This document shows positions 42,938 to 53,349 of a DNA stretch of 64,000 nt, one piece after another (the stretch's first letter is position 1; the number at the start of each line of letters is the position of its first letter). The translations under genes and the position numbers were made by a program. The stretch spans positions 744,001 through 808,000 of the forward strand of contig NZ_JACFXU010000013.1 of NCBI RefSeq assembly GCF_014077625.1. Reading direction: 5' to 3'. Source of the stretch: Sediminihaliea albiluteola (GTDB lineage: Bacteria; Pseudomonadota; Gammaproteobacteria; Pseudomonadales; Halieaceae). Below the pieces are notes generated by a model that made no database searches, was not told the DNA's origin, and saw only the letters and a program-made list of their open reading frames with translations.

Positions 42938-43925
42938 TAGGGGCGCCTGCCGGTGTCAAAAGTATTCCGCGACCCGTCCCACCAAATGAGCTTAATCTGT
43001 TTCCCTTGGGCTTCTTGCAGAGATTGTGGCGCCACCGAATCACCTGGGTGCATTGGCTTTTGGATGGCTTGGGGCGCCTGCGGGAGGCCTTGGAGGCTTT
43101 GGAGCGCCTACGGGAAGCAGGGTCACTCCGCGACACGCCGCCAGTACGTCCTTGTAGGCTCGGGCTCGACGTCCTGTCTCGCACGGTCGCTGCATGACCC
43201 TACCACCCGCAGTCTTCGATTCTTAGCTAGGTCGAACAATTAACATTCAAGCTTCTTGGTGTTTGTGCCGTTGCTTATTAAGGCAGTGCACTTAAATGAG
43301 AAGGTGAGGACGACGGCTTAGGCTGAAGGACCGTTGAGCGCATGGATGCGCGAACCGAGCCCCCATGGATGGGTTTACGGCGTGTCCGCAAGCCTATGCC
43401 GTTGGCCGCGCCGCCACTGAATTAGCTTGCTATGGAGTTTTTTGGATGGCTCGGAGCGCCTGCGGGAGGCAGGATCACTCCGCGACACGCCGCAAGTACA
43501 TCCTTGTAGGCTCGGGCTCGACGTCCTGTCTTGCACGGTCGCTGCGCGGCCCTACCACCCGCTGTCTTCAATTCACTCTCAGAGTGATCTTGAGGCTTTG
43601 TTCATACATTCCTTTGCCCAATTAAGCCGCCATATTTTGATATTAAGGTGTGGACGACGGTTTAGGCTAAAGGACCGTTGAGCGCATGGACGCGCGAACC
43701 GAGCCCCCATGGATGGGTTCACTGCGTGTCCGCAAACCTATTCCGTTGGCCGCGCCGCCACCGTATCAGCTTGACCTGTTTCTACGGGAGTCTTTGGAGG
43801 CTTTGGGGCGCCTGCGGGAGGCAGGGTCACTCCGCGACACGCCGCAAGTACGTCCTTGTAGGCTCGGGCTCGACGTCCTGTCTCGCACGGTCGCTGCGCG
43901 ATTCTGCCACCCGCTGTCAGCAATT
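42938..43925. repeat. repeat cluster, units C1-B1-A1-B2-A2-B3
   Basis: This gene-free kilobase is made of degenerate copies of three units. C1 is 42940-43034; B copies are 43103-43217, 43454-43575 and 43806-43920; A copies are 43301-43416 and 43645-43761. Unit A contains the palindrome GCGCAT-GG-ATGCGC (43338-43351 in A1) and CCATGGATGGG. Unit B contains CTCGGGCTCGACGTCC and ends TACCACCCGCTGTC. C and B share their first 45 bases (GCGCCTGCGGGA...CTCCGCGAC). Open frames of 60-120 codons here only translate the repeats and are not genes. Whether the units are transcribed or mobile is unknown. Confidence 0.85.
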
Positions 43926-43947
43926 CACGATCAGGGTGATCTGGAGC

Positions 43948-45300
43948 TTATGCAAACAGTTGTTTGCTTCTCCAGCCTCCCCAACGGTAATAAGCAACGG
44001 AAAACAGGCTACTAATAAGGAAACTGATACCGATGCCTAGGGCAATCCCCGATTCGCCGTACAGTGAGATCATCCAATAGGCCAATGGGACGCGCAATAG
44101 CCATAGAGAAATGATATTCAGAGCGAGGATTTGAAACATTGCACCAGCCCCTCGCACCACCCCATTGAGGATGAAGTTTAAACCGATAAATGGGTAGAAC
44201 AACGCGATTGTGCGCAAGTACGAGACGCCAAATGCCACGCCCTCTTCGTCACTGATAAATAACTTCACTAGCGGCTCAGCCCAAATGAATAGCAACACGA
44301 CAAAAAATATCATGACCACCAGGTTGTAGATGATGCCGACCTTGGAAATCTGAGCTACCCGCGCCCACTTATTCGCGCCGATATTTTGTGCTGCCATGGC
44401 GTTTACCGCGGAACCTAAAGCGAGAGCGGGCAACAGGACAATATTGTCTAGGCGCTGCGCTGCACCAAAACCCGCGACCACATCCTCGCCAAAGCCGTTG
44501 ACCATCCAGAGAATGACCGCCATGCCGGCATAGATGACTATCATCTGTATGCCTGAGGGCACGCCTAGCTGCAAAATAGTGCGTATTTCAGAAAGCTTGG
44601 GCCATTGCAATCGGAATGCAGGCAGTCCGGCCCCTGGCCTCCCTGACAGGTAGAACAGGCTGTATATGAAGGCCATGGTCTGCGCCAAAATCATGGCCCA
44701 GGCTGCGCCGGCTAGGCCCAAGTTAAACCCAACAATAAATAGCGGATTAAGCACAGCCGTCAGTACGGTTGCCAACAACACGAAATACAAAGGCGTCCTG
44801 CTATCACCAAAAGCCCGTAGCAAACTGCCAATGAAATTATAGCCAGTGAGAAACAGGCTGCCGATGAACATGATCTGCAGGTATTGCTTAGCGGCAACGC
44901 TAATCGATGCCGGCGTATTGAGCAATGCCAGCAGCGCTTCGGTGAAAAAATAACCCGCCAGGCCAATGACCAGCGACAGCACAGTCAAAAGAATGGTAAA
45001 AGCGCTCAGGTAGGAGCTGATTTCTGCCTGATTATTGGCTCCCTTCAGTTGCGCAAATACTGTAAGGGTTGCGTTATTCACACCCATGATAAAGGCCAGC
45101 AGTACAACCATAATCGTGGTGGCCACTGTGACGGCTGCAAACGCAGCACTTCCCAAGAGGTTGCCGACCCACAGACCGGTGATAAGCAACAGGGAAGCCT
45201 GCAGTAGGTTGCTGAACAGAATTGGCAAGGAAAAATGGAGTAGCTTCCGAGGCACTGAGCCTTCAGTAAAGTCGCTTTTCACGATAGAAATTCTTCTCAA
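43948..45300 (-). CDS. MATE-family multidrug/organic-cation efflux pump
   Basis: Inner-membrane Na+- or H+-coupled exporter of 450 residues with about twelve helices in two six-helix halves (helices starting near LHFSLPILFSNLLQASLLLITGLWVGNLLGS and RTILQLGVPSGIQMIVIYAGMAVILWMVNGFGEDVVAGFGAAQRLD, in pieces). The start MRRISIVKSDFTEGS and the VPRKLLHFSLPILFSN motif fit the DinF/NorM-like branch. It is flanked on both sides by the A-B-C-D repeats, with the stop codon only about 28 bases from unit B3, so it sits in a variable segment. Confidence 0.9.
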   Translation of the reverse strand: MRRISIVKSDFTEGSVPRKLLHFSLPILFSNLLQASLLLITGLWVGNLLGSAAFAAVTVATTIMVVLLAFIMGVNNATLTVFAQLKGANNQAEISSYLSAFTILLTVLSLVIGLAGYFFTEALLALLNTPASISVAAKQYLQIMFIGSLFLTGYNFIGSLLRAFGDSRTPLYFVLLATVLTAVLNPLFIVGFNLGLAGAAWAMILAQTMAFIYSLFYLSGRPGAGLPAFRLQWPKLSEIRTILQLGVPSGIQMIVIYAGMAVILWMVNGFGEDVVAGFGAAQRLDNIVLLPALALGSAVNAMAAQNIGANKWARVAQISKVGIIYNLVVMIFFVVLLFIWAEPLVKLFISDEEGVAFGVSYLRTIALFYPFIGLNFILNGVVRGAGAMFQILALNIISLWLLRVPLAYWMISLYGESGIALGIGISFLISSLFSVAYYRWGGWRSKQLFA

Positions 45301-45380: not shown

Positions 45381-45917
45381 GAGTAGTCAGCGAACAGTCG
45401 CAATGTCAGCTGCTTGTTTAACTTACTGACGAAGTGACCAAGCTGGGGAGCAGCGATTGAGAGCCGGTACTGACTGCGTTGCCAACATATCAGCTGGCTA
45501 TAGTGGTTCTTGGCTAGCTTAGGGGCGCCTGCGGGATGCTGGACCACTCCGCGACCCGCCCCACCGAATGAGCTTAAACTGTTTCCTTTGGGTTTCTTAC
45601 AGAGATTGTGGCGCCAGCGAGTGGCAAGATCACTTCGCGACATGCCGCAAGTACTTCCTTGTAGGCTCGGGCTCGACGTCCTGTCTCGCACGGTCGCTGT
45701 GTGGCCCTGTGCCACCCGCCGTCTTCAACTCACACTCAGAGTAATCTTTAGGCTTTGTTTTTACATTCCTTTGCTCAATTAAGCCGCCGTATTTGGATAT
45801 TAAGGTGTGGACGACGGTTTAGGCTGTAGGACCGTTGAGCGCATGGATGCGCGAACCGAGCCCCATGGATGGGTTCACGGCGTGTCCGTAAGCCTATGCC
45901 GTTGGCCGCGCCGCCAA
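45381..45917. repeat. repeat cluster, units D2-C2-B4-A3 (contiguous composite)
   Basis: The four units lie head to tail here: D2 45381-45535, C2 45522-45616, B4 about 45617-45725, a linker of about 75 bases (also found between B2 and A2), then A3 45802-45917. This appears to be the uninterrupted form of the composite. On the left side of the MATE gene the same order is broken between D and C by the toxin-antitoxin module. The interval 45301-46142 otherwise contains only the left attachment site and the integrase leader. Confidence 0.85.
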
Positions 45918-45953: not shown

Positions 45954-45970
45954 AATTGGCGGTGAGGGAG
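45954..45970. repeat. left attachment site of the integrated element
   Basis: The 17-mer AATTGGCGGTGAGGGAG is identical to 53259-53275, where it forms the last 14 bases of tRNA-Ser plus three flanking bases. The copies differ at both neighbouring bases, so the repeat is exactly 17 bp. The integrase gene starts 173 bases to the right. Confidence 0.9.
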
Positions 45971-46102
45971 TCCGCCAAAATAGCATCCAACAAGCCACAC
46001 TAAAAACCACAAAAACAAAGATTTACCATAGTATTATCAACCACTTATAACTACACTTAGTCCAGTTAGTGCTATTACCCTCTTTTGCCATTTACAACCA
46101 AA

Positions 46103-46126
46103 GTGGTGGACTGGGTGGTGGACTGG
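46103..46126. repeat. tandem 12-bp repeats near the left end, possible integrase arm sites
   Basis: GTGGTGGACTGG occurs twice in perfect tandem (46103-46114, 46115-46126), just before the integrase start. A degenerate tandem pair of the same 12-mer lies at the other end of the element (53188-53211). Matching repeats inside both ends are the usual layout of arm-type binding sites for a tyrosine integrase. Confidence 0.6.
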
Positions 46127-46142
46127 TGAGTTAGGCGGAGTA

Positions 46143-47378
46143 ATGTCTATGAGCAAACTAAGTGCAAAAGGAATAGAGAAACTAGGGGTGGGAACCCATA
46201 CCGATGGTGACGGCCTGCAGTTAGTTGTCAGTCCAACCGGAAACAAAAAGTGGGTTTTCAGGTACCAATTAAATAAACGTCGGCGGGAAATGGGGCTAGG
46301 CACTTATCCAACAATCAGCCTAAAGAAAGCCCGCATTGATGCAGCAACCCAGCGCGGGCTGATACTAGATGGCAAAGACCCATTAGATGAGCGAAACAAG
46401 GCCAAAAAACAAATCATCGAATCTGGCCAAAAAGAACAGGCCAAGGCATACACATTCAAGCAAGCTGCAGCTGAATACATAGCTGCCCATAGCCCAGGCT
46501 GGAAAAATGCCAAGCATACCCAGCAGTGGGAGAACACGCTAAAAACCTATGCAGAACCATTTATAGGCCGCTTACCTGTCAATGACATCACTACAGACCA
46601 CGTACTAAAAGCCTTACGCCCCATCTGGTATGAGAAGCCAGAAACAGCGTCAAGAGTAAGAAACAGAATAGAGCTAGTGCTAGATGCCGCAAAAGCCAGA
46701 GGCAAGCGGAAAGGTGAAAATCCCGCTCGGTGGCGCGGCCATTTAGACAAACTACTCCCTGCCCGCCTCGATGTACGGGCACGGAAGCACCACGCAGCCC
46801 TTCCCTACCTTGAATTGCCCGCTTTCATGGCAAAGGTGGCCGAGCATGAAGACCTGTCTTATAAAGCCGTACAGGTCACAATATTGGCCGCCCTTAGAAC
46901 CAGTGAGGCATTGTGCGCGACCTGGGATGAAATCGACTATGAAAACAAAGTGTGGACGATTCCAGCTGAAAGGATGAAGGCGAAAAAGGAGCATCGAGTA
47001 CCACTGTCTGAGCCATTAATTAAAGTCCTTAAGTCAATCCCAGTACACACAGACAATAATCACCTTTTTCCTGGCATGAAAAAAAATAGGCCGCTATCCA
47101 ATATGGCGATGCTGATGGCACTTCGCCGCATGGGGCGTGACGATCTGACGATGCACGGCTTTCGCTCTACCTTCCGAGACTGGGCTGGAGAATGTACGCC
47201 ACACCCTAGGGACGTATGTGAGCAGGCCTTAGCTCACAGCCTGGGCAACTCAGTAGAGGCAGCATACCGCCGAGGTGATCTGTTCGAGAAGCGCCGCGCA
47301 TTAATGAATGACTGGGCGCAATACGCCACAGCAGCACCGAGTGAAAAAGTGGTGAATATTAGGGGGCGCCGCGCATGA
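46143..47378 (+). CDS. P4-type tyrosine integrase
   Basis: Site-specific recombinase of 411 residues. The N-terminal DUF4102 arm-binding domain (LSAKGIEKLGVGTHTDGDGLQLVVSPTGNKKWVFRYQLNKRRREMGLGTYPTISLKKAR, in pieces) is followed by a core-binding domain and the catalytic domain: first Arg in AALRTSEALCATWDEID, HGFRSTFRDWAGE (H338, R341), HSLGNS and the nucleophile in EAAYRRGDLF (Y375). All catalytic residues are present. ATG 46149 is an alternative start. It overlaps the next gene by four bases. It is at the end of the element away from the tRNA gene. Confidence 0.95.
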   Translation: MSMSKLSAKGIEKLGVGTHTDGDGLQLVVSPTGNKKWVFRYQLNKRRREMGLGTYPTISLKKARIDAATQRGLILDGKDPLDERNKAKKQIIESGQKEQAKAYTFKQAAAEYIAAHSPGWKNAKHTQQWENTLKTYAEPFIGRLPVNDITTDHVLKALRPIWYEKPETASRVRNRIELVLDAAKARGKRKGENPARWRGHLDKLLPARLDVRARKHHAALPYLELPAFMAKVAEHEDLSYKAVQVTILAALRTSEALCATWDEIDYENKVWTIPAERMKAKKEHRVPLSEPLIKVLKSIPVHTDNNHLFPGMKKNRPLSNMAMLMALRRMGRDDLTMHGFRSTFRDWAGECTPHPRDVCEQALAHSLGNSVEAAYRRGDLFEKRRALMNDWAQYATAAPSEKVVNIRGRRA

Positions 47379-48022
47379 TTGACCGCCAAAGTATTCACGA
47401 TTCGGTTTATACAGCGGTTTCGCTGACGCTTAAAGCTTCACGAGATATGGCTAAACACCCTGAATTAGATAACTTTGCTAAGTCCGTAGCAAACGACATA
47501 CATAAGCGATTTAACCCAAGTGACGATGTAGCCCAGCTTTTAGAAAGTGCTGCCCCTGACGGCTCAAGGCAGCGCACCAGTGCAGCGCATACAGCAGTGT
47601 CCGGCTTATCCCGCATCCTCGAAAACATGGGCGTGAATGAACGAAGAGCGCTGATCCCCCCTACCCCCAAACTACAAGAGCTTTTAGGTTTGGATGATGA
47701 ATGCCATGTCGCAAATTATCATGCCGCCATAGATGAATGGATACAGCTTACCTTTGCGATCAGCGAGGCAATGGGCGAGCGAGCCGAAAGAAAGCCGAAC
47801 AAGAATACAATAACGGTTCAATTCGAGCCCCTTGTCGAGCTAATGGCATGGCGCTGGACAAAGTGCTTTAACAAGATCCCTAGCGGCGCTGAAAACTCAG
47901 TATTCAACAACGTGATACAGGCAATCCTTTCCGCCGCGCCTTTTGATAAAACCATAACGCCTAGCTCTGTGAAAGCAATCCTAAAACGAATCGACTTACC
48001 CACACTGAAAACTAGGGGGTAA
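47375..48022 (+). CDS. unknown protein translationally coupled to the integrase
   Basis: A 215-residue, mainly helical, soluble protein with no domain I recognise. Its ATG overlaps the integrase stop (ATGA), so the two are coupled. Notable segments are AAPDGSRQRTSAAHTAVSGLSRILENMGVNERRALIPPTPKLQELLGL (in pieces) and MAWRWTKCFNKIPSGAENSVFNNVIQAIL. A role in excision, integration control or immunity is possible from position only. The 106 bases that follow contain TATATT at 48076-48081, a possible -10 for the alpA gene. Confidence 0.65.
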   Translation: MIDRQSIHDSVYTAVSLTLKASRDMAKHPELDNFAKSVANDIHKRFNPSDDVAQLLESAAPDGSRQRTSAAHTAVSGLSRILENMGVNERRALIPPTPKLQELLGLDDECHVANYHAAIDEWIQLTFAISEAMGERAERKPNKNTITVQFEPLVELMAWRWTKCFNKIPSGAENSVFNNVIQAILSAAPFDKTITPSSVKAILKRIDLPTLKTRG

Positions 48023-48128
48023 AAAAGCGGGCAGCGAAGAATTTTCTTTTACCCCATACGTAAAAATTTATTGCATATATTAGAACCCTCATCCAGAACG
48101 AGCCATAGAGCCACAAGGGAGAGCGGTT

Positions 48129-48335
48129 ATGTCTAACAGCCAAAATATGCAAATTCGGCGCATCATGCGCTTGCCAGAAGTCATGGCAGTCACCGGCTAC
48201 AAACGTAGCTCTATTTATAACTTCATGCAGGAAGACACCTTCCCAAAATGCTACCGCATAGGAAAAAGAGCGGTCGGCTGGGACAGTGTGGAAGTAGAAA
48301 GGTGGGTAAAGACCAAGCTTCGTAGGGGTGCTTAA
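48129..48335 (+). CDS. AlpA-family DNA-binding regulator
   Basis: A 68-residue excisionase-like winged helix protein: RIMRLPEVMAVTGYKRSSIYNFMQEDTFPKCYRIGKRAVGWDSVEVERWVKTK (in pieces). The pattern RLPEVxxxTGxxRSSIYxxxxxGxFPxxxxIGxRAVGWxxxEVExW is diagnostic. AlpA proteins activate satellite integrase or early genes in P4 and related islands. AGGGAGAG lies six bases before the ATG, and a probable promoter lies in the 106-base gap upstream. No repressor gene is visible, so AlpA is the likely master switch. Confidence 0.92.
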   Translation: MSNSQNMQIRRIMRLPEVMAVTGYKRSSIYNFMQEDTFPKCYRIGKRAVGWDSVEVERWVKTKLRRGA

Positions 48336-48336
48336 A

Positions 48337-48570
48337 ATGAGCCTACGTCAAGCAATCAATAATAAATGCCGTGAGTGCATTTATGACCCCAACGCCGACG
48401 GCAACTGGAGGCAGCAAACAAGCGCCTGCACAGCCCCTGCATGCCCTCTCTTTAAAGTCAGGCCCCGTAGTAGTACCCGACCACAGGAAAGCGATAATTC
48501 AATCGAAAAAACGCCCGAATTGGTCCCGCAATCGAAGGTGCTAGCAGAGTATCAGGTACCACTCTTTTGA
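48337..48570 (+). CDS. small cysteine-motif phage-type protein
   Basis: A 77-residue protein starting at ATG 48337 just behind the alpA stop. CRECIYDPNADGNWRQQTSACTAPACPLFKVRP (in pieces) carries CxxC and CxxxxCPLF, a zinc-binding pattern common in small phage and island proteins of the same neighbourhood. The second half is polar and probably disordered. Function unknown. Its stop codon lies inside the first of three tandem 12-bp repeats. Confidence 0.7.
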   Translation: MSLRQAINNKCRECIYDPNADGNWRQQTSACTAPACPLFKVRPRSSTRPQESDNSIEKTPELVPQSKVLAEYQVPLF

Positions 48571-48601
48571 GCCCGTGTTTGAGCCCGTGTTTGAGCCCGT
48601 G
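48566..48601. repeat. three perfect tandem copies of a 12-bp repeat
   Basis: TTTGAGCCCGTG repeated at 48566-48577, 48578-48589 and 48590-48601. It starts inside the stop codon of the preceding gene and lies in an otherwise non-coding gap of 82 bases. It could be an iteron-like or regulator-binding array, or simply replication slippage. Confidence 0.8.
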
Positions 48602-48652
48602 CGCGGACACTAAAAACAGGGCGCTTCCAGCATTCATTGAGGGCAAGACACC

Positions 48653-48778
48653 ATGAGCGTAAGCATCGTCGATAAAGAAACACTTTCAAAGATTCGCAGC
48701 AAAGCCTGGACTGTTGCCGATGACGTAGAGCCCTGGGAGTTAGCGGACGCCGCCCGAGCACTTTGTGAGAAGCCATAA
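48653..48778 (+). CDS. 41-residue small protein
   Basis: ATG 48653 to TAA 48778 encodes MSVSIVDKETLSKIRSKAWT... and ends ELADAARALCEKP. A weak GAGGGC site precedes it by ten bases. It is acidic and probably helical. Codon use fits the element, and the interval would otherwise be non-coding, so it is plausible but unproven. Confidence 0.45.
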   Translation: MSVSIVDKETLSKIRSKAWTVADDVEPWELADAARALCEKP

Positions 48779-48843
48779 AAAAAGCCCGACCAGTGTTCGA
48801 GCACTGCCGAGCTTTAAGTTTGTCACCTGAGGGGGTAACAAAG

Positions 48844-49140
48844 ATGATTTTACATCATAACAAAGAAAGTACCGAAGCTGTTAGTCAGGCCATGCGCGAA
48901 ACAGGCTCCACACAAGCGCACAGGCTTGTTTCTTATCTGCTTGTTAATGGCGTAGCAATAACTCATGACATTGCAAGAGATTGCGCCATAGGAAATATAA
49001 GCTGCGCCGCTTCCTACATCAGGCCCGCACTTCAAAAGCGAGGCTATACCATTCTGGCCACCCGCCCAGAGAAACCAATACTCAACCGTTTCGGTGAGAC
49101 CTCACAAATTCATGAGTGGCGGCTCATCAGGTTGCGCTAA
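48844..49140 (+). CDS. winged-helix-like small phage protein
   Basis: A 98-residue protein starting at ATG 48844 after a GAGGGGG ribosome site; the frame extends upstream to 48793 but without one. STQAHRLVSYLLVNGVAITHDIARDCAIGNISCAASYIRPALQKRGYTILATRPEKPILNRFGETSQIHEWRLI (in pieces) has the helix-turn-helix-wing pattern seen in small phage helix-turn-helix proteins. It may bind DNA. It overlaps the next gene by one base (TAATG). Confidence 0.65.
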   Translation: MILHHNKESTEAVSQAMRETGSTQAHRLVSYLLVNGVAITHDIARDCAIGNISCAASYIRPALQKRGYTILATRPEKPILNRFGETSQIHEWRLIRLR

Positions 49141-49544
49141 TGGCAAAGGCAAACAGCAAGGGAATGCTACCTAATGGCAGAAAAAAGAGCGGACCGCAGT
49201 TTACCCGCGCTTTACATGCCATTACAGACCATCCCGATTACATAGCCATGTCAAAGCAGTCAAGGGCGTTTCTGTGGGACTTGTCGAGGCAATACAACGG
49301 CTTCAATAACGGCAATTTAGCGGCCTGCCTAGGCGTTATGGGAAAGCTTGGGTGGACTAAGTGGGAATTAATGCGGGCCAGAAAAGAAGCTGAAAGCCTA
49401 GGGTGGATTGAAGTGACCCGCTACCCCTCTGCAAAGCGAGATCCTGTGCTGTATCGCCTCACATGGCTAAAGACTGATAAGTGGGACGGCAAGCCCAAAC
49501 TTGATGTAGGTGCACACGCACAGCGTGTCAGGAGTTTGAAGTGA
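49140..49544 (+). CDS. winged-helix protein, possible replication initiator
   Basis: A 134-residue basic protein. HPDYIAMSKQSRAFLWDLSRQYNGFNNGNLAACLGVMGKLGWTKWELMRARKEAESLGWIEVTRY (in pieces) resembles the winged-helix domains of phage and plasmid replication proteins, with the NGFNNGNL turn characteristic of that group. No primase or helicase motif is present. Start at ATG 49140 overlaps the previous stop by one base. A set of GGTGCACA repeats lies at the end of this gene and just beyond it, which could be its binding site. Confidence 0.6.
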   Translation: MAKANSKGMLPNGRKKSGPQFTRALHAITDHPDYIAMSKQSRAFLWDLSRQYNGFNNGNLAACLGVMGKLGWTKWELMRARKEAESLGWIEVTRYPSAKRDPVLYRLTWLKTDKWDGKPKLDVGAHAQRVRSLK

Positions 49545-49664
49545 ATTCGATTTTCTATGGTGCACAGAAACACCTTAAACCCGCTTTGAGGTGGCTGTGT
49601 GCACCTCATAACACTGTAAAAGTACTGTTTTATACCCTCTGTGGTGCACAGAAACACCTTAAAC
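49509..49664. repeat. GGTGCACA repeats and nested dyads, candidate replication origin or operator
   Basis: GGTGCACA occurs at 49509-49516, 49559-49566 and 49643-49650, and inverted at 49598-49605. A 23-base stretch is repeated exactly at 49558-49580 and 49642-49664. In the first copy GGTGCACA and TGTGCACC (49559-49566 with 49598-49605) enclose a second pair CACCT/AGGTG, giving a two-level hairpin; the second copy has a weaker version. This is more structure than a coding sequence needs. Confidence 0.7.
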
Positions 49665-49774
49665 ACCCTTTTTTCATGTTTCTGAGGTGGCTACACCTAC
49701 CCCCTCTATACATATCTACCATAGGTAGTTTCAGCTCAAAGCCTTTAACTGCTCTAAAGGGTGGGCTGTCATGA
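49541..49774 (+). CDS. doubtful 77-residue frame over the repeat region
   Basis: GTG 49541 overlaps the stop of the preceding gene (GTGA), and the stop overlaps the next start (ATGA), which favours a real gene. Against this, the protein is unusual: it is aromatic and basic and contains an internal repeat (GAQKHLK twice, ALRWL/FLRWL) that merely reflects the DNA repeats. It may be a spurious frame over a structured DNA region. Confidence 0.3.
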   Translation: MNSIFYGAQKHLKPALRWLCAPHNTVKVLFYTLCGAQKHLKHPFFMFLRWLHLPPLYISTIGSFSSKPLTALKGGLS

Positions 49775-50025
49775 ACTGTTTAAACCTAGCTTTTGGCCAG
49801 AGAAAAGTTTGTGACGGTATCTACTACGGCAGGCATTTTGCTGTGAAGTCTATTTTCTGCATACAGGACAAACGGCAAACACTGGAGTGGGAAGTTACCT
49901 TGCTGGGGGCAGGCTTTAAGTCAGCTGGATATAAGTATCTTGGCAAAGGTGGGCCATCTACTCCGCTGACAAATAAACCTGGTCATTCCAACCAGCTTTT
50001 AAAAATGAACAGGCCTGCAAGCTAA
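49771..50025 (+). CDS. small unknown protein, paralogue of the next gene
   Basis: An 84-residue protein. Its middle, CDGIYYGRHFAVKSIFCIQDKRQTLEWEVTLLGAGFKSAGYKYLGKGG (in pieces), aligns with the next protein (SSGVFFNRHYAEQAAVML...WLVVVLPHGLKPEGYKHLGEHG). The shared pattern is G(V/I)(Y/F)(Y/F)xRHxA at the start and GYKxLG at the end. No known domain is recognised. Tandem duplication inside the element is the best explanation. Confidence 0.55.
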   Translation: MNCLNLAFGQRKVCDGIYYGRHFAVKSIFCIQDKRQTLEWEVTLLGAGFKSAGYKYLGKGGPSTPLTNKPGHSNQLLKMNRPAS

Positions 50026-50038
50026 TGAGGACGTAAAA

Positions 50039-50290
50039 GTGATTCGATTAGCTTTAGTTTGTGATCTGCACAGCATTTCTAGCGGTGTGTTTTTCAATCG
50101 CCACTATGCGGAGCAAGCGGCAGTGATGTTAGAAGGTGAATTTCCTGGCACCACTTGGCTAGTCGTGGTGCTACCGCACGGCCTAAAGCCAGAGGGATAT
50201 AAGCACCTTGGTGAACATGGTGCACGCCGGAAACTGAAAAGAATAACCACTAACGACAAAGAGCAAGGCAAAACACTGAGGGGGCAATAA
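50039..50290 (+). CDS. small unknown protein, paralogue of the preceding gene
   Basis: An 83-residue protein starting at GTG 50039. It shares the GVFFNRHYA and GYKHLGEHG motifs with the protein encoded just upstream and has a basic C-terminal tail (RRKLKRITTNDKEQGK). The stop overlaps the next start by one base (ATAATG). Function unknown. Confidence 0.55.
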   Translation: MIRLALVCDLHSISSGVFFNRHYAEQAAVMLEGEFPGTTWLVVVLPHGLKPEGYKHLGEHGARRKLKRITTNDKEQGKTLRGQ

Positions 50291-50520
50291 TGACTACTAC
50301 AGCGGAACGTATGAGAAAACTACGAGAACGAAGAGCTGAGGGTATACGCGTTTTACAGGTTGAGGTGGGCATAGAGACAGCAGAAATGCTGATAGAGACA
50401 GATTATTTGTCAGTCGATCAGGCGCACGACTATGTGCAAGTGTCTAGGGCGCTGGCTAGGTTTATCGAGGACGCCACTGAGAGTGTGACGAGTCACAGCA
50501 TCACACTGGATGCGTGGTAA
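50290..50520 (+). CDS. small helical phage-type protein
   Basis: A 76-residue protein. The N terminus TTAERMRKLRERRAEGIRVLQVEVGIETAEMLIE is a common opening in small phage and satellite proteins and may form a ribbon-helix-helix-like element; the rest is an acidic helix (DQAHDYVQVSRALARFIED). It could bind DNA as a dimer, but this is only suggested by the pattern. Confidence 0.55.
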   Translation: MTTTAERMRKLRERRAEGIRVLQVEVGIETAEMLIETDYLSVDQAHDYVQVSRALARFIEDATESVTSHSITLDAW

Positions 50521-50758
50521 TTTAAAAAACATGAAGAATTGTCATAACACAGACATTGAAGGCCAGACAGTTGCTGAACTACTGACTTTTATCCAGAGCC
50601 ATTTTCTCGAGTCACCGGTAGGAGCTGTGGTCGGTGCCCTGATGAGAACGAGTTTCGCACTTGTCGTTGAAGCGCTAGGGGAAGACCTAGGCCAGAAAAC
50701 TGCCCGCCGTGCCTTAGAAAACATTATTTCCCAACAGAAGCGAAGGAAGCTGCAGTGA
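50510..50758 (+). CDS. small unknown protein
   Basis: An 82-residue protein (75 residues if the second ATG at 50531 is used; neither start has a good ribosome site). EGQTVAELLTFIQSHFLESPVGAVVGALMRTSFALVVEALGEDLGQKTARRALENI (in pieces) is helical and partly hydrophobic, with a basic tail. It overlaps both neighbours by a few bases, which supports expression from the polycistronic mRNA. Confidence 0.5.
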   Translation: MRGNLKNMKNCHNTDIEGQTVAELLTFIQSHFLESPVGAVVGALMRTSFALVVEALGEDLGQKTARRALENIISQQKRRKLQ

Positions 50759-51315
50759 TCAAGAAACTTAAATCTCTTACCCAACGTGCCGCCCAGGCAA
50801 TTAAAAACGATACGCCATCGGCAGAGCTCACTGAGATAAAGCGGGAAGTTGGTGAGCGTATACACCAGGTTGAAGTCGAGTTGAAAACAAAAGAACAAGA
50901 GATTGAAGCCGCTATGATTGATGGTGACTTGGATGGCCTGCGCGCCATTCGCCATCAAGAGGCTGAGCTTAAAGACGAAGACAAGGTGCTGCACCGCCAA
51001 AACAGTGACCTTCACCGTGCTATTAGAAATGCCGAGGGTGAGGAGGCAATGAAATCGGCTGAGAAGCTTCGCAAGGAGCTAGGCAAGGCACTAGACCAGG
51101 CTGAAAAAGCTCAGGCCATATTGCAACAAGCACAGGCATCGGCCCGCGAGGTAGCCAAGGCACGTGAAACTGCGGCTTATATTGGGGAGTCTCTTTTGTT
51201 CGATTCAGCCACTATCAGAAGCCTTGCCGAACTGGCCTTTAAACATGACACCGAGCAAAAGCAGATCATGATTGATTTAGGTATTCGAGACGCCATGATC
51301 GCAGAAAGAGGTTAA
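50755..51315 (+). CDS. coiled-coil protein upstream of the prohead protease
   Basis: A 186-residue protein starting at GTG 50755 (four-base overlap with the previous gene). Residues about 20-150 are almost entirely charged heptad-type helix (ELTEIKREVGERIHQVEVELKTKEQEIEAAM, then AEKLRKELGKALDQAEKAQAILQQAQASAREV). No enzyme motif is present. Its position directly ahead of the head-maturation genes makes a scaffold-like or capsid-interacting role a reasonable guess, not a demonstrated one. Confidence 0.6.
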   Translation: MIKKLKSLTQRAAQAIKNDTPSAELTEIKREVGERIHQVEVELKTKEQEIEAAMIDGDLDGLRAIRHQEAELKDEDKVLHRQNSDLHRAIRNAEGEEAMKSAEKLRKELGKALDQAEKAQAILQQAQASAREVAKARETAAYIGESLLFDSATIRSLAELAFKHDTEQKQIMIDLGIRDAMIAERG

Positions 51316-51318
51316 GCC

Positions 51319-51558
51319 ATGAAAGCGGAAAGAGCAGAAGCGGGAACCCGAGTTAGTGCTACGGCAGAGGATCGCAAATATAAAGGAATAGCCCGACACC
51401 CTTTGGCCCGTAAATGGATGCTAAAACGACTGATTGAAGCGCGGGACAACCTAGAAGCGGCAAGGGATCACCAGACAGAAGTTAGATGGGCAAGTGAAGT
51501 TGAGCGCGTATCTGGTGAGCTTAGCCGCTGTGGCGTTCACCTGGGGGCAGACAAGTGA
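51319..51558 (+). CDS. small basic helical protein
   Basis: A 79-residue protein of mixed charge (KYKGIARHPLARKWMLKRLIEARDNLEAARDHQTEVRWASEVERVSGELSRCG, in pieces). It lies three bases after the coiled-coil gene and overlaps the protease gene by four bases. The N terminus contains AGTRVSATAEDRKYKG. No family is recognised. Position suggests a head-related or packaging-related role. Confidence 0.5.
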   Translation: MKAERAEAGTRVSATAEDRKYKGIARHPLARKWMLKRLIEARDNLEAARDHQTEVRWASEVERVSGELSRCGVHLGADK

Positions 51559-52088
51559 GGCTTGTAGGTCATGCGGCAGTATTCAACAGTCATAGCGTGG
51601 ACTTGGGCGGCTTCTACGAGACTATTACCCCTGGGGCCTTCGCTCGTACCCTCCGTGATGGTCATCCAATCTTTGCCGTACATCATCACAACATGGCCGA
51701 CCTACTAGGCTCTAGCCAAAGCCGAACACTGAAACTCTCAGAGGATAGCGAGGGATTGCACTTTGATCTGACATTACCTGACAGTTCACTTGGGCGGGAT
51801 ATTCACGAGCTTGTACAGCGTGGAGACCTGAACAAAATGAGTTTTTGTTTTCTTGTGAATGGCTCCGCTGGCGAAGCGTGGCACGAGGATTCAAACGGGC
51901 AGATCATTCGCACGCTAAAAGACGTAACACTAATTGAGGTATCCACAGTGGCGCGGCCAGCCTATCCCGCTAGCAGTGTAGCGGCACGATCAACGCCAGC
52001 TATTCACCAAGCCCCCAGACGCAACAAGAATGCAATGCTTAAGCGTTACATGACAGCGAGGCTAGAGGCGTCATGTGCTGCACCATAG
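51555..52088 (+). CDS. HK97-family prohead protease
   Basis: Serine protease (U35/HK97 type) of 177 residues that matures phage proheads. It begins MRLVGHAAVFNSHSVDLGGFYETITPGAFARTL, the family opening. The catalytic histidine is in FAVHHHNMADLLG (H43-H45), the serine in LNKMSFCFLV (S96), and the acidic residue probably in LIEVSTVARPAYPAS (E128). Start is GTG 51555 overlapping the preceding stop. In ordinary phages the major capsid gene follows; here a short gap and the small terminase gene follow instead. Confidence 0.9.
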   Translation: MRLVGHAAVFNSHSVDLGGFYETITPGAFARTLRDGHPIFAVHHHNMADLLGSSQSRTLKLSEDSEGLHFDLTLPDSSLGRDIHELVQRGDLNKMSFCFLVNGSAGEAWHEDSNGQIIRTLKDVTLIEVSTVARPAYPASSVAARSTPAIHQAPRRNKNAMLKRYMTARLEASCAAP

Positions 52089-52226
52089 CCACAGGCCTAT
52101 TGTTTAGACCTGGCCGTATCAAAGGTGGGAGGGGTGGTCCAAAGTCTAAAGACCTCCAACGCATGACCGTGTGGGTACTCAAATTTTCACGCGGTCACTT
52201 AAGAAATTTCAGGTAACGGTTAGAGC
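52089..52226 (+). other. 138-base non-coding gap before terS, candidate packaging site
   Basis: The only sizeable gap in the second half of the element. It contains a dyad GACCGTGTG (52165-52173) / CACGCGGTC (52188-52196; 8 of 9 bases pair) and a G-rich stretch GGTGGGAGGGGTGGTCC near 52120. Phage cos or pac sites commonly lie next to the small terminase gene, so this is a candidate; no known cos sequence was recognised. Confidence 0.35.
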
Positions 52227-52646
52227 ATGGCTGGTAGAACTAAACAACCGGACAATATAAAGCGGCTTCGTGGCACTGATCGCCCCGACCGCTCAACACC
52301 AAAACCCGCTGTAGTGCTACCACTGATCAAAGATGCACCAGCGGCCCCCGACTGGCTCCCTAACGCCCACGCGATCAAAGAATGGCACAGACTAGCCCCT
52401 ATGCTTCAGGCCACTGGCTTGCTTACTGAGGGCGGCCTAGCACCCTTAGCTCACTTGTGCGCGCTACACGGGACGATTGTTAAAGCCTACCAGGACAGAG
52501 AGACACCCAAGGGAAACATGGTGGCCCAGCTTCGCGGCTTACTTAATGACTTTGGCCTGACACCTGTGGCGATTAGCAGAGTATCAGCACCAGGAGCCAA
52601 GCCAGAGAAAGAGAACCCATTTAACCGTAATGGCAGGCGCAAATAG
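52227..52646 (+). CDS. P27-family phage terminase small subunit
   Basis: A 139-residue DNA-recognition subunit of a phage packaging terminase. It starts MAGRTKQPDNIKRLRGTDRPDRSTPKP and contains PDWLPNAHAIKEWHRLAPMLQATGLLTEGGLAPLAHLCALHGTI (in pieces) and RGLLNDFGLTPVAISRVSAP, the standard P27 layout. The expected large-subunit gene does not follow. A satellite-encoded small terminase would steer a helper phage packaging motor to the satellite genome, as known in PICI elements. Confidence 0.92.
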   Translation: MAGRTKQPDNIKRLRGTDRPDRSTPKPAVVLPLIKDAPAAPDWLPNAHAIKEWHRLAPMLQATGLLTEGGLAPLAHLCALHGTIVKAYQDRETPKGNMVAQLRGLLNDFGLTPVAISRVSAPGAKPEKENPFNRNGRRK

Positions 52647-52655
52647 TTATCCTCA

Positions 52656-52673
52656 CCCGCGGCCTAGCGCGGG
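52656..52673 (+). terminator. weak terminator-like hairpin after terS
   Basis: CCCGCG (52656-52661) pairs with CGCGGG (52668-52673) around a 6-base loop, followed by CCTTTAT. The T-run is short, so some transcription probably continues into the next genes. Confidence 0.4.
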
Positions 52674-52755
52674 CCTTTATGGATACAGCTAGGACACGGA
52701 AGCCAGCGCCGTGACATCAATAAAGACTGGCCTAATTAAAACATGGAGCAGCGCC

Positions 52756-52959
52756 ATGAATGATAAAACTCTTCCAGAAAGCACCACTAATAAAGAGCTA
52801 AAAAAGCAACTAATTGACGCTTACAAGCAGATGGATACCAAAAGCCAAGTACAGGCAACCAGAGGCCTATTAACAATGCTATCTATTAGGGTGAGCCTAC
52901 AGGAGGCGCAGCACGAACCCGCCATTAAGCCCCATAGACGCCCTATCAAAGGCGCGTGA
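52756..52959 (+). CDS. small unknown protein
   Basis: A 67-residue protein from ATG 52756 (the frame extends to 52711 without a ribosome site). MNDKTLPESTTNKELKKQLIDAYKQMDTKSQVQATRGLLTMLSIRVSLQEAQ (in pieces) is helical; the tail is basic (HRRPIKGA). It overlaps a second frame that starts at an ACG behind a strong ribosome site. No family recognised. Confidence 0.5.
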   Translation: MNDKTLPESTTNKELKKQLIDAYKQMDTKSQVQATRGLLTMLSIRVSLQEAQHEPAIKPHRRPIKGA

Positions 52960-53098
52960 CCTTGTCGCCCTACATCAATCAGTTGATTGGGACAGTCCTG
53001 CAAAAGGCGCTATCGATGGAGGTATAGCCTTGCTGGATGAAGTGCGCGAATGTATCGACAGTGCAATTAATTCTATTCATGTTCAATTAACCGAATAG
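52913..53098 (+). CDS. 61-residue frame with a strong ribosome site but an ACG start
   Basis: AGGAGG at 52901-52906 is followed after six bases by ACG (52913-52915) and a 61-codon frame ending TAG at 53098. The peptide reads TNPPLSPIDALSKARDLVAL then HQSVDWDSPAKGAIDGG and continues helical to the end, a normal protein-like composition. The best explanation is a real small gene whose ATG became ACG by one transition, or one that uses a rare start codon. It overlaps the preceding gene by 47 bases. Confidence 0.4.
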   Translation, partial: TNPPLSPIDALSKARDLVALHQSVDWDSPAKGAIDGGIALLDEVRECIDSAINSIHVQLTE

Positions 53099-53120
53099 AC
53101 GAAGCCAAAAACCTACTATA

Positions 53121-53155
53121 AACCCTGTTCAGCTGATTACTGTTCAGGGTTTTTT
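53121..53155 (+). terminator. rho-independent terminator at the end of the element's gene row
   Basis: AACCCTG (53121-53127) pairs with CAGGGTT (53145-53151), followed by a T-run to 53155. Inner bases contain TTCAG and TGTTC, extending the stem imperfectly. It closes the plus-strand operon before the right end of the element. Confidence 0.8.
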
Positions 53156-53187
53156 GTGCTCTATAAAAAAATATAACCCGCCATAAA

Positions 53188-53211
53188 GTGGTGGACCAGG
53201 TGGCGTACTAG
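53188..53211. repeat. degenerate tandem 12-bp pair near the right end, possible integrase arm sites
   Basis: GTGGTGGACCAG (53188-53199) and GTGGCGTACTAG (53200-53211) match the perfect tandem GTGGTGGACTGG pair at 46103-46126, in the same orientation. They lie about 50 bases from the right attachment site. Confidence 0.55.
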
Positions 53212-53220
53212 AAAGAAAGG

Positions 53221-53250
53221 CAAAAAAAAGCCCTGTAAAAACAAGGCTTT
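53221..53250 (-). terminator. terminator of the tRNA-Ser transcript, supplied by the element
   Basis: On the minus strand AAAGCCTTGT (53250-53241) pairs with ACAGGGCTTT (53236-53227) around TTTT, followed by a run of Ts (A-tract at 53222-53229 on the plus strand). It lies 12 bases from the tRNA 3' end and inside the integrated element. Confidence 0.8.
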
Positions 53251-53258
53251 AAAGCAAT

Positions 53259-53275
53259 AATTGGCGGTGAGGGAG
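53259..53275. repeat. right attachment site, overlapping the tRNA-Ser 3' end
   Basis: AATTGGCGGTGAGGGAG, identical to 45954-45970. On the minus strand its 14 right-hand bases are the last 14 bases of tRNA-Ser including CCA, so insertion leaves the tRNA intact. Confidence 0.9.
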
Positions 53276-53349
53276 AGATTCGAACTCTCGAACGGTTGCC
53301 CGTTACACGCTTTCCAGGCGTGCGCCTTCGACCACTCGGCCACCTCACC
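53262..53349 (-). tRNA. tRNA-Ser (anticodon GGA)
   Basis: 88-base class II tRNA. Acceptor GGTGAGG pairs with CCTCACC; the anticodon loop CTGGAAA gives GGA; the T-arm is GAGAGTTCGAATCTCTC; the 3' end CCA is encoded. The long variable arm (ACGGGCAACCGT) is typical of serine tRNAs. It is the integration site of the satellite-like element and the intact member of a tandem duplication. Confidence 0.97.

Follow-up and report, generated by a model that had tools for sequence, protein, structure and literature searches.

Organization of the island

The window analyzed here, a 64,000-nucleotide stretch of DNA from the marine Halieaceae bacterium Sediminihaliea albiluteola, contains a 7.3-kb island delimited by 17-bp direct repeats (AATTGGCGGTGAGGGAG). 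The two copies, attL (45954–45970) and attR (53259–53275), are 100% identical, and attR overlaps the 3′ end of a tRNA-Ser(GGA) gene (53262–53349, minus strand) that is duplicated in attL, confirming the boundaries given in the original prediction. Besides this att pair, the two searched flanks share no other exact repeat of at least 13 bp. A possible arm-type site for the integrase (46100–46136, plus strand) is partly repeated at 53185–53221 with 76% identity. When the queF locus was scanned in relatives with ARAGORN, tRNA-Ser(GGA) adjoined queF in 13 of 14 cases; neither the island integrase nor the left-flank gene of the window had a match in the flanking DNA searched at these 13 loci (up to ~1 kb), which fits the expectation for an attachment site. 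Immediately upstream of the tRNA gene, the tRNA-Ser region is repeated in a second copy that is partial and interrupted (53280–53328/53501–53549 and 53328–53466/53624–53762; 97–98% identical). Mutually similar ORF translations at ~43400–43640, 43690–44010, and 45510–45780 suggest repeated extragenic sequence near the island.

The main ORFs all lie on the plus strand. The first encodes a P4-type tyrosine integrase (46143–47378; Phage_integrase, Arm-DNA-bind_3) and is overlapped through an ATGA motif by orf2 (215 aa; 47375–48022), the function of which is unassigned, as is that of orf17 (82 aa; 52711–52959) at the right end. An AlpA regulator/excisionase follows (48129–48335; PF05930, E 8e-21). 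Several of the small genes have counterparts in islands of relatives: orf4 (80 aa; 48328–48570) resembles ORFs in island L010 and in the cos-bearing islands L103 and L105, orf5 (41 aa; 48653–48778) resembles an ORF in L009, and orf6 (115 aa; 48793–49140), also present in L107, is 63% identical to an ORF of L105. The products of orf9 (84 aa; 49771–50025) and orf10 (83 aa; 50039–50290) are paralogous. PADLOC identified no defense genes among the island proteins.

The predicted lack of a primase was borne out insofar as no annotated island protein matched one in Pfam or PHROGs, but the reading of the replication functions has changed: the island probably encodes its own initiator. The product of orf7 (142 aa; 49116–49544) is 31% identical to a protein named "replication protein O" in the 16-kb record vB_Pae_U1, and relatives of orf7 are present in L103, L106, L107, and L109. 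Just downstream, three copies of a 21-bp sequence in direct–inverted–direct orientation (49554–49671) look like an iteron origin and mark a candidate origin of replication. The P. aeruginosa record vB_Pae_U1 (L070) lists an integrase, a cox-like regulator, replication protein O, a primase, and Rhs genes, with no annotated head genes, and may itself be a satellite.

The protease–TerS block and its relatives

The right half of the island comprises orf11 (76 aa; 50290–50520), orf12 (82 aa; 50510–50758), orf13 (186 aa; 50755–51315), orf14 (79 aa; 51319–51558), an HK97-type prohead protease (51555–52088; Peptidase_S78, E 3e-41; NCBIfam proheadase_HK97 above cut-off), and a P27-like small terminase, TerS (52227–52646; PF05119, phrog_83). 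Pfam, NCBIfam, and PHROGs matches thus bear out the gene order expected at the outset, with a P4-type integrase, AlpA, small co-oriented genes, and a terminal protease and TerS within 7.3 kb. The expected absences held as well: among the annotated island proteins, Pfam and PHROGs yielded no match to a large terminase (TerL), portal, capsid, tail, lysis, or repressor protein. Nor was there a convincing HNH match in the island.

In an alignment with HK97 gp4, the protease retains a conserved histidine and the serine of an MS(V/F)xF motif. We take these residues to be the catalytic pair of HK97-type proteases, and their retention suggests that the enzyme is likely active. ORF13 is an all-helical coiled coil predicted to form a long helical hairpin (pLDDT 86, from a three-sequence alignment). 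Structure comparison of the predicted fold returned only uninformative coiled-coil matches, and kinship with the delta domain of a capsid protein was not supported, ORF13 showing no resemblance to the capsid protein of the phage locus L011. For these reasons, a scaffold-like role for ORF13 is only a guess.

The same six genes, from orf11 to terS, occur in the same order in Haliea sp. EAC94 (G017) and Halieaceae UBA5085 (G068), with products 46–72% identical to those of the window. The respective islands, L009 and L010, are ~9.06 and 9.04 kb long, are bounded by 49- and 53-bp repeats, and adjoin tRNA-Arg(TCT) and tRNA-Arg(CCT) genes; their integrases and replication genes differ from those of the window. 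Identity to the window in L009 and L010 is 67–70% for orf11, 46–51% for orf12, 59–62% for orf13, and 64–70% for orf14. Between L009 and L010, dN/dS, where computable, is 0.21 for orf12, 0.16 for both orf13 and orf14, 0.11 for the protease, and 0.17 for terS; for orf11, dS is saturated and pN/pS is 0.17. The block is under purifying selection, as read from this one pair, since comparisons involving the window approach or reach saturation and those of orf13 and the protease are missing.

The original prediction had called for a search for copies at other tRNA-Ser genes and in virions. Copies of the block do exist elsewhere, but at tRNA-Arg rather than tRNA-Ser genes, and the orf13 and orf14 families are absent from the viral contigs scanned. 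The block is rare: orf14 was found in 3 of 140 genomes of the family, a search of a class-wide sample with orf13 found no genome other than Sediminihaliea albiluteola, and a scan of genome contigs with TerS gave no match. Two weak order-wide matches to orf13 were rejected; they sit in reading frames of 779 and 1661 aa and were taken as chance coiled-coil similarity. None of 50,697 phage records contains a match to orf11, orf13, or orf14, so the block is not part of any catalogued phage.

Scanning viral contigs with the protease identified eleven loci with related proteases, none of them satellite-like. A capsid-gene match lies downstream of the protease in nine; of the other two, L149 stops shortly past the protease, and L155 has a 393-aa ORF there and no match to a reference capsid protein. 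At the position of these capsid-gene matches, each of the three islands instead has a cos-like block followed by terS.

The host genome assembly (3.3 Mb, 98% complete, 18 contigs) contains no second Peptidase_S78 protein, no portal protein, and no L011-type TerL. Its sole match to phrog_2, a TerL family, is weak (E 1.5e-4) and contains a stop codon. A helper prophage, which had been suggested as something to look for in this genome, was thus not found by the portal, L011-type TerL, and phrog_2 searches. The island is not the end of a prophage either, a possibility that the original prediction had named as fatal to its reading: it has two ends of its own, no portal or TerL was found in the genome, and in two relatives the corresponding islands are separate and att-bounded.

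A candidate cos site between the protease and terS

The gap between the protease gene and terS contains a candidate cos site (52127–52209, plus strand). The gap sequence can be aligned with the physical ends of the genomes of phages D3 (...ACCGCGCCCCCA/GGTCTTTTT...) and HK97, both of which have records ending inside the aligned block, and with the regions preceding terS in the phages Psp6, TC7, L007, and L011. From the alignment with the D3 genome end, cutting is predicted near 52177/52178. In HK97, TerS binds 15–29 bp downstream of the cut, and the HNH protein gp74 aids cleavage (PMC11331095, PMC9410871).

A short exact pattern, GACCGYGTGGGTANTC, proved unsuitable as a cos marker in viral contigs because it matched mostly by chance (1 of 43 matches was accompanied by a TerS match), and a full sequence model was therefore built. 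The model was trained only on six phage regions (D3, HK97, Psp6, TC7, L007, and L011), and the tool itself describes the E-values as rough. Applied to 141 kb, it found 52127–52209 (28.3 bits, E 1.4e-7); across the whole genome the same segment ranked first (E 3.3e-6), with the next match at 0.2. Islands L010 and L008 are likewise recovered by the model, which gives no match in L009 or L012, although the cos-like block of L009 does align. Together, these sequence comparisons provide good support for a cos site in the island.

Among relatives, 17 of 146 genomes contain matches to the model. Those in G026, G095, G118, and G126 are close to an L011-type TerL gene and provide a check on the model, G026 being itself a training sequence. 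Of the fetched cos loci that have no matched TerL, eight (L103 and L105–L111) show integrase matches; judging from gene lists, several resemble small satellites, whether or not they carry terS or capsid genes. Two of them, L103 (G054) and L106 (G021), are very small int–alpA–orf7 islands with a cos match and no obvious terS or head gene in the gene list, and are possible minimal cos satellites. L107 (G142) has three cos matches within 9 kb of one contig, among integrase, orf6- and orf7-like, and possible capsid-like genes.

A proposed satellite cycle and comparison with known satellites

Based on these data, we propose that the island is a PICI-like, cos-packaged phage satellite, a reading to which we assign a probability of about 0.75. 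Its satellite status is well supported, and the original suggestion of an HK97-like helper is strengthened by the match of the island cos to HK97/D3-type genome ends, which provides independent support. The cycle would begin when an HK97/D3-type cos phage infects the host cell. AlpA and the integrase, judging from their families, would excise the island from tRNA-Ser, and the orf7 initiator would replicate it from the 21-bp repeats downstream. Satellite TerS would then bind beside its own cos and recruit the TerL and HNH proteins of the helper for cutting, as suggested by the cos match and by the lack of TerL and of a convincing HNH in the island, for which reason the helper would have to supply both. 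Finally, satellite DNA would be loaded into helper proheads. In the least certain step, ORF13 and the orphan protease probably influence how the helper capsid is assembled, so that either small heads are made or large ones spoiled.

That the protease-containing block probably acts on helper heads is suggested by analogy, since SaPIbov5 alters head size by means of a borrowed capsid protein and most reference Gram-negative PICIs carry a capsid gene. More tentatively, and with somewhat less than even confidence, orf11–orf14 and the protease may constitute a capsid-redirecting module, in which the protease and the coiled-coil ORF13 would reshape or mature helper capsid protein into small heads without a satellite capsid protein. 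Alternatively, the protease may be mainly a weapon against the helper that would cut its capsid protein or scaffold prematurely and lower its yield, with satellite DNA traveling in heads of normal size. Such an arrangement competes with the capsid step only, not with satellite status, and it would accommodate the retained catalytic motifs and the failure to find a satellite capsid substrate; moreover, one PICI protein, Rpp, is known to block its helper as well as to assist the satellite (PMC6739421). However, orf13 and orf14 accompany the protease gene in each of the three islands, which suggests that they share a role in assembly, and we consider the weapon rather unlikely as its main function.

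It is less probable still that the island is the inert remnant of a capsid-forming PICI or prophage from which portal, capsid, and TerL genes were deleted. In complete phages such as L011 and L145, protease and TerS genes do lie close to those for capsid and TerL, and a deletion could yield the present set. However, this gene set is shared by three genera, in which the tRNA genes occupied and the integrases differ; its dN/dS between L009 and L010 is 0.11–0.21; the main ORFs are open and the cos site is retained; and orf11, orf13, and orf14 are unseen in phage records. Movement by general transduction by cos phages, with the protease serving an unrelated host or defense function, is very improbable. 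Nothing positive speaks for it, and the other small proteins match no known defense family, whereas the protease is typical of HK97-type prohead proteases, and in each of the three islands its gene directly adjoins a cos-like block and terS.

As a PICI-like satellite, the island shares with Gram-negative PICIs such as EcCICFT073 and PmCI172 an integrase, AlpA, specific att sites, and helper cos packaging (PMC10111431; PMC6092414), although its cos/TerS packaging module is recognized by sequence only. It is called PICI-like rather than a PICI, since the latter term implies induction and transfer by a helper phage. At 7.3 kb, it is smaller than Gram-negative PICIs (10–20 kb; PMC10111431). Many of these have a single late gene, most often that of the capsid (21/29 reference PICIs; PMC10111431; PMC6092414), which is not needed for transfer (PMC10111431). 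In its place the island has a protease, along with its own TerS and an HK97/D3-like cos, and instead of a Pri-Rep match it has the initiator-like orf7 and the 21-bp repeats. Beyond the integrase, P4-like satellite genes (alpha primase, Psu/Sid/Delta) have no match in the island in Pfam or PHROGs.

In keeping with the initial impression that the gene set was not one already described, no account of a protease and TerS without a capsid was found in the literature searched, in which journal coverage is incomplete. The nearest case is the Vibrio satellite-plasmid TG93, which shares the head maturation protease and small terminase but is a plasmid with capsid protein E and no detected integrase (PMC13230959). 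Capsid-forming cf-PICIs also share the HK97-type prohead protease and TerS; unlike the island, in which none of these was found, they carry capsid, portal, connector, HNH, and TerL genes (PMC10690885). PICMI is likewise a very small marine satellite that carries AlpA and an int gene overlapped through ATGA by another gene, but it has a primase, adjoins fis, and lacks packaging genes in its prototype (PMC10803314), whereas the island adjoins tRNA-Ser and has TerS and a protease, with no primase match. The islands L008, L012, and L108 of relatives share int, small genes, one head gene, and TerS, with no matched TerL, and have a capsid-like gene where the island has the protease block, making them its capsid counterpart. 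In SaPIbov5, also a cos satellite, a borrowed phage head gene (Ccm) redirects capsid assembly (PMC8569155); there it is a capsid-protein homologue, and here a protease.

More generally, cos sites may serve to find satellites, as the phage-derived model caught further integrase islands without a matched TerL in relatives. The borrowed parts known from phage satellites until now are capsid proteins, scaffolds, TerS modifiers, or the whole head, to which the island would add a packaging set based on a protease.
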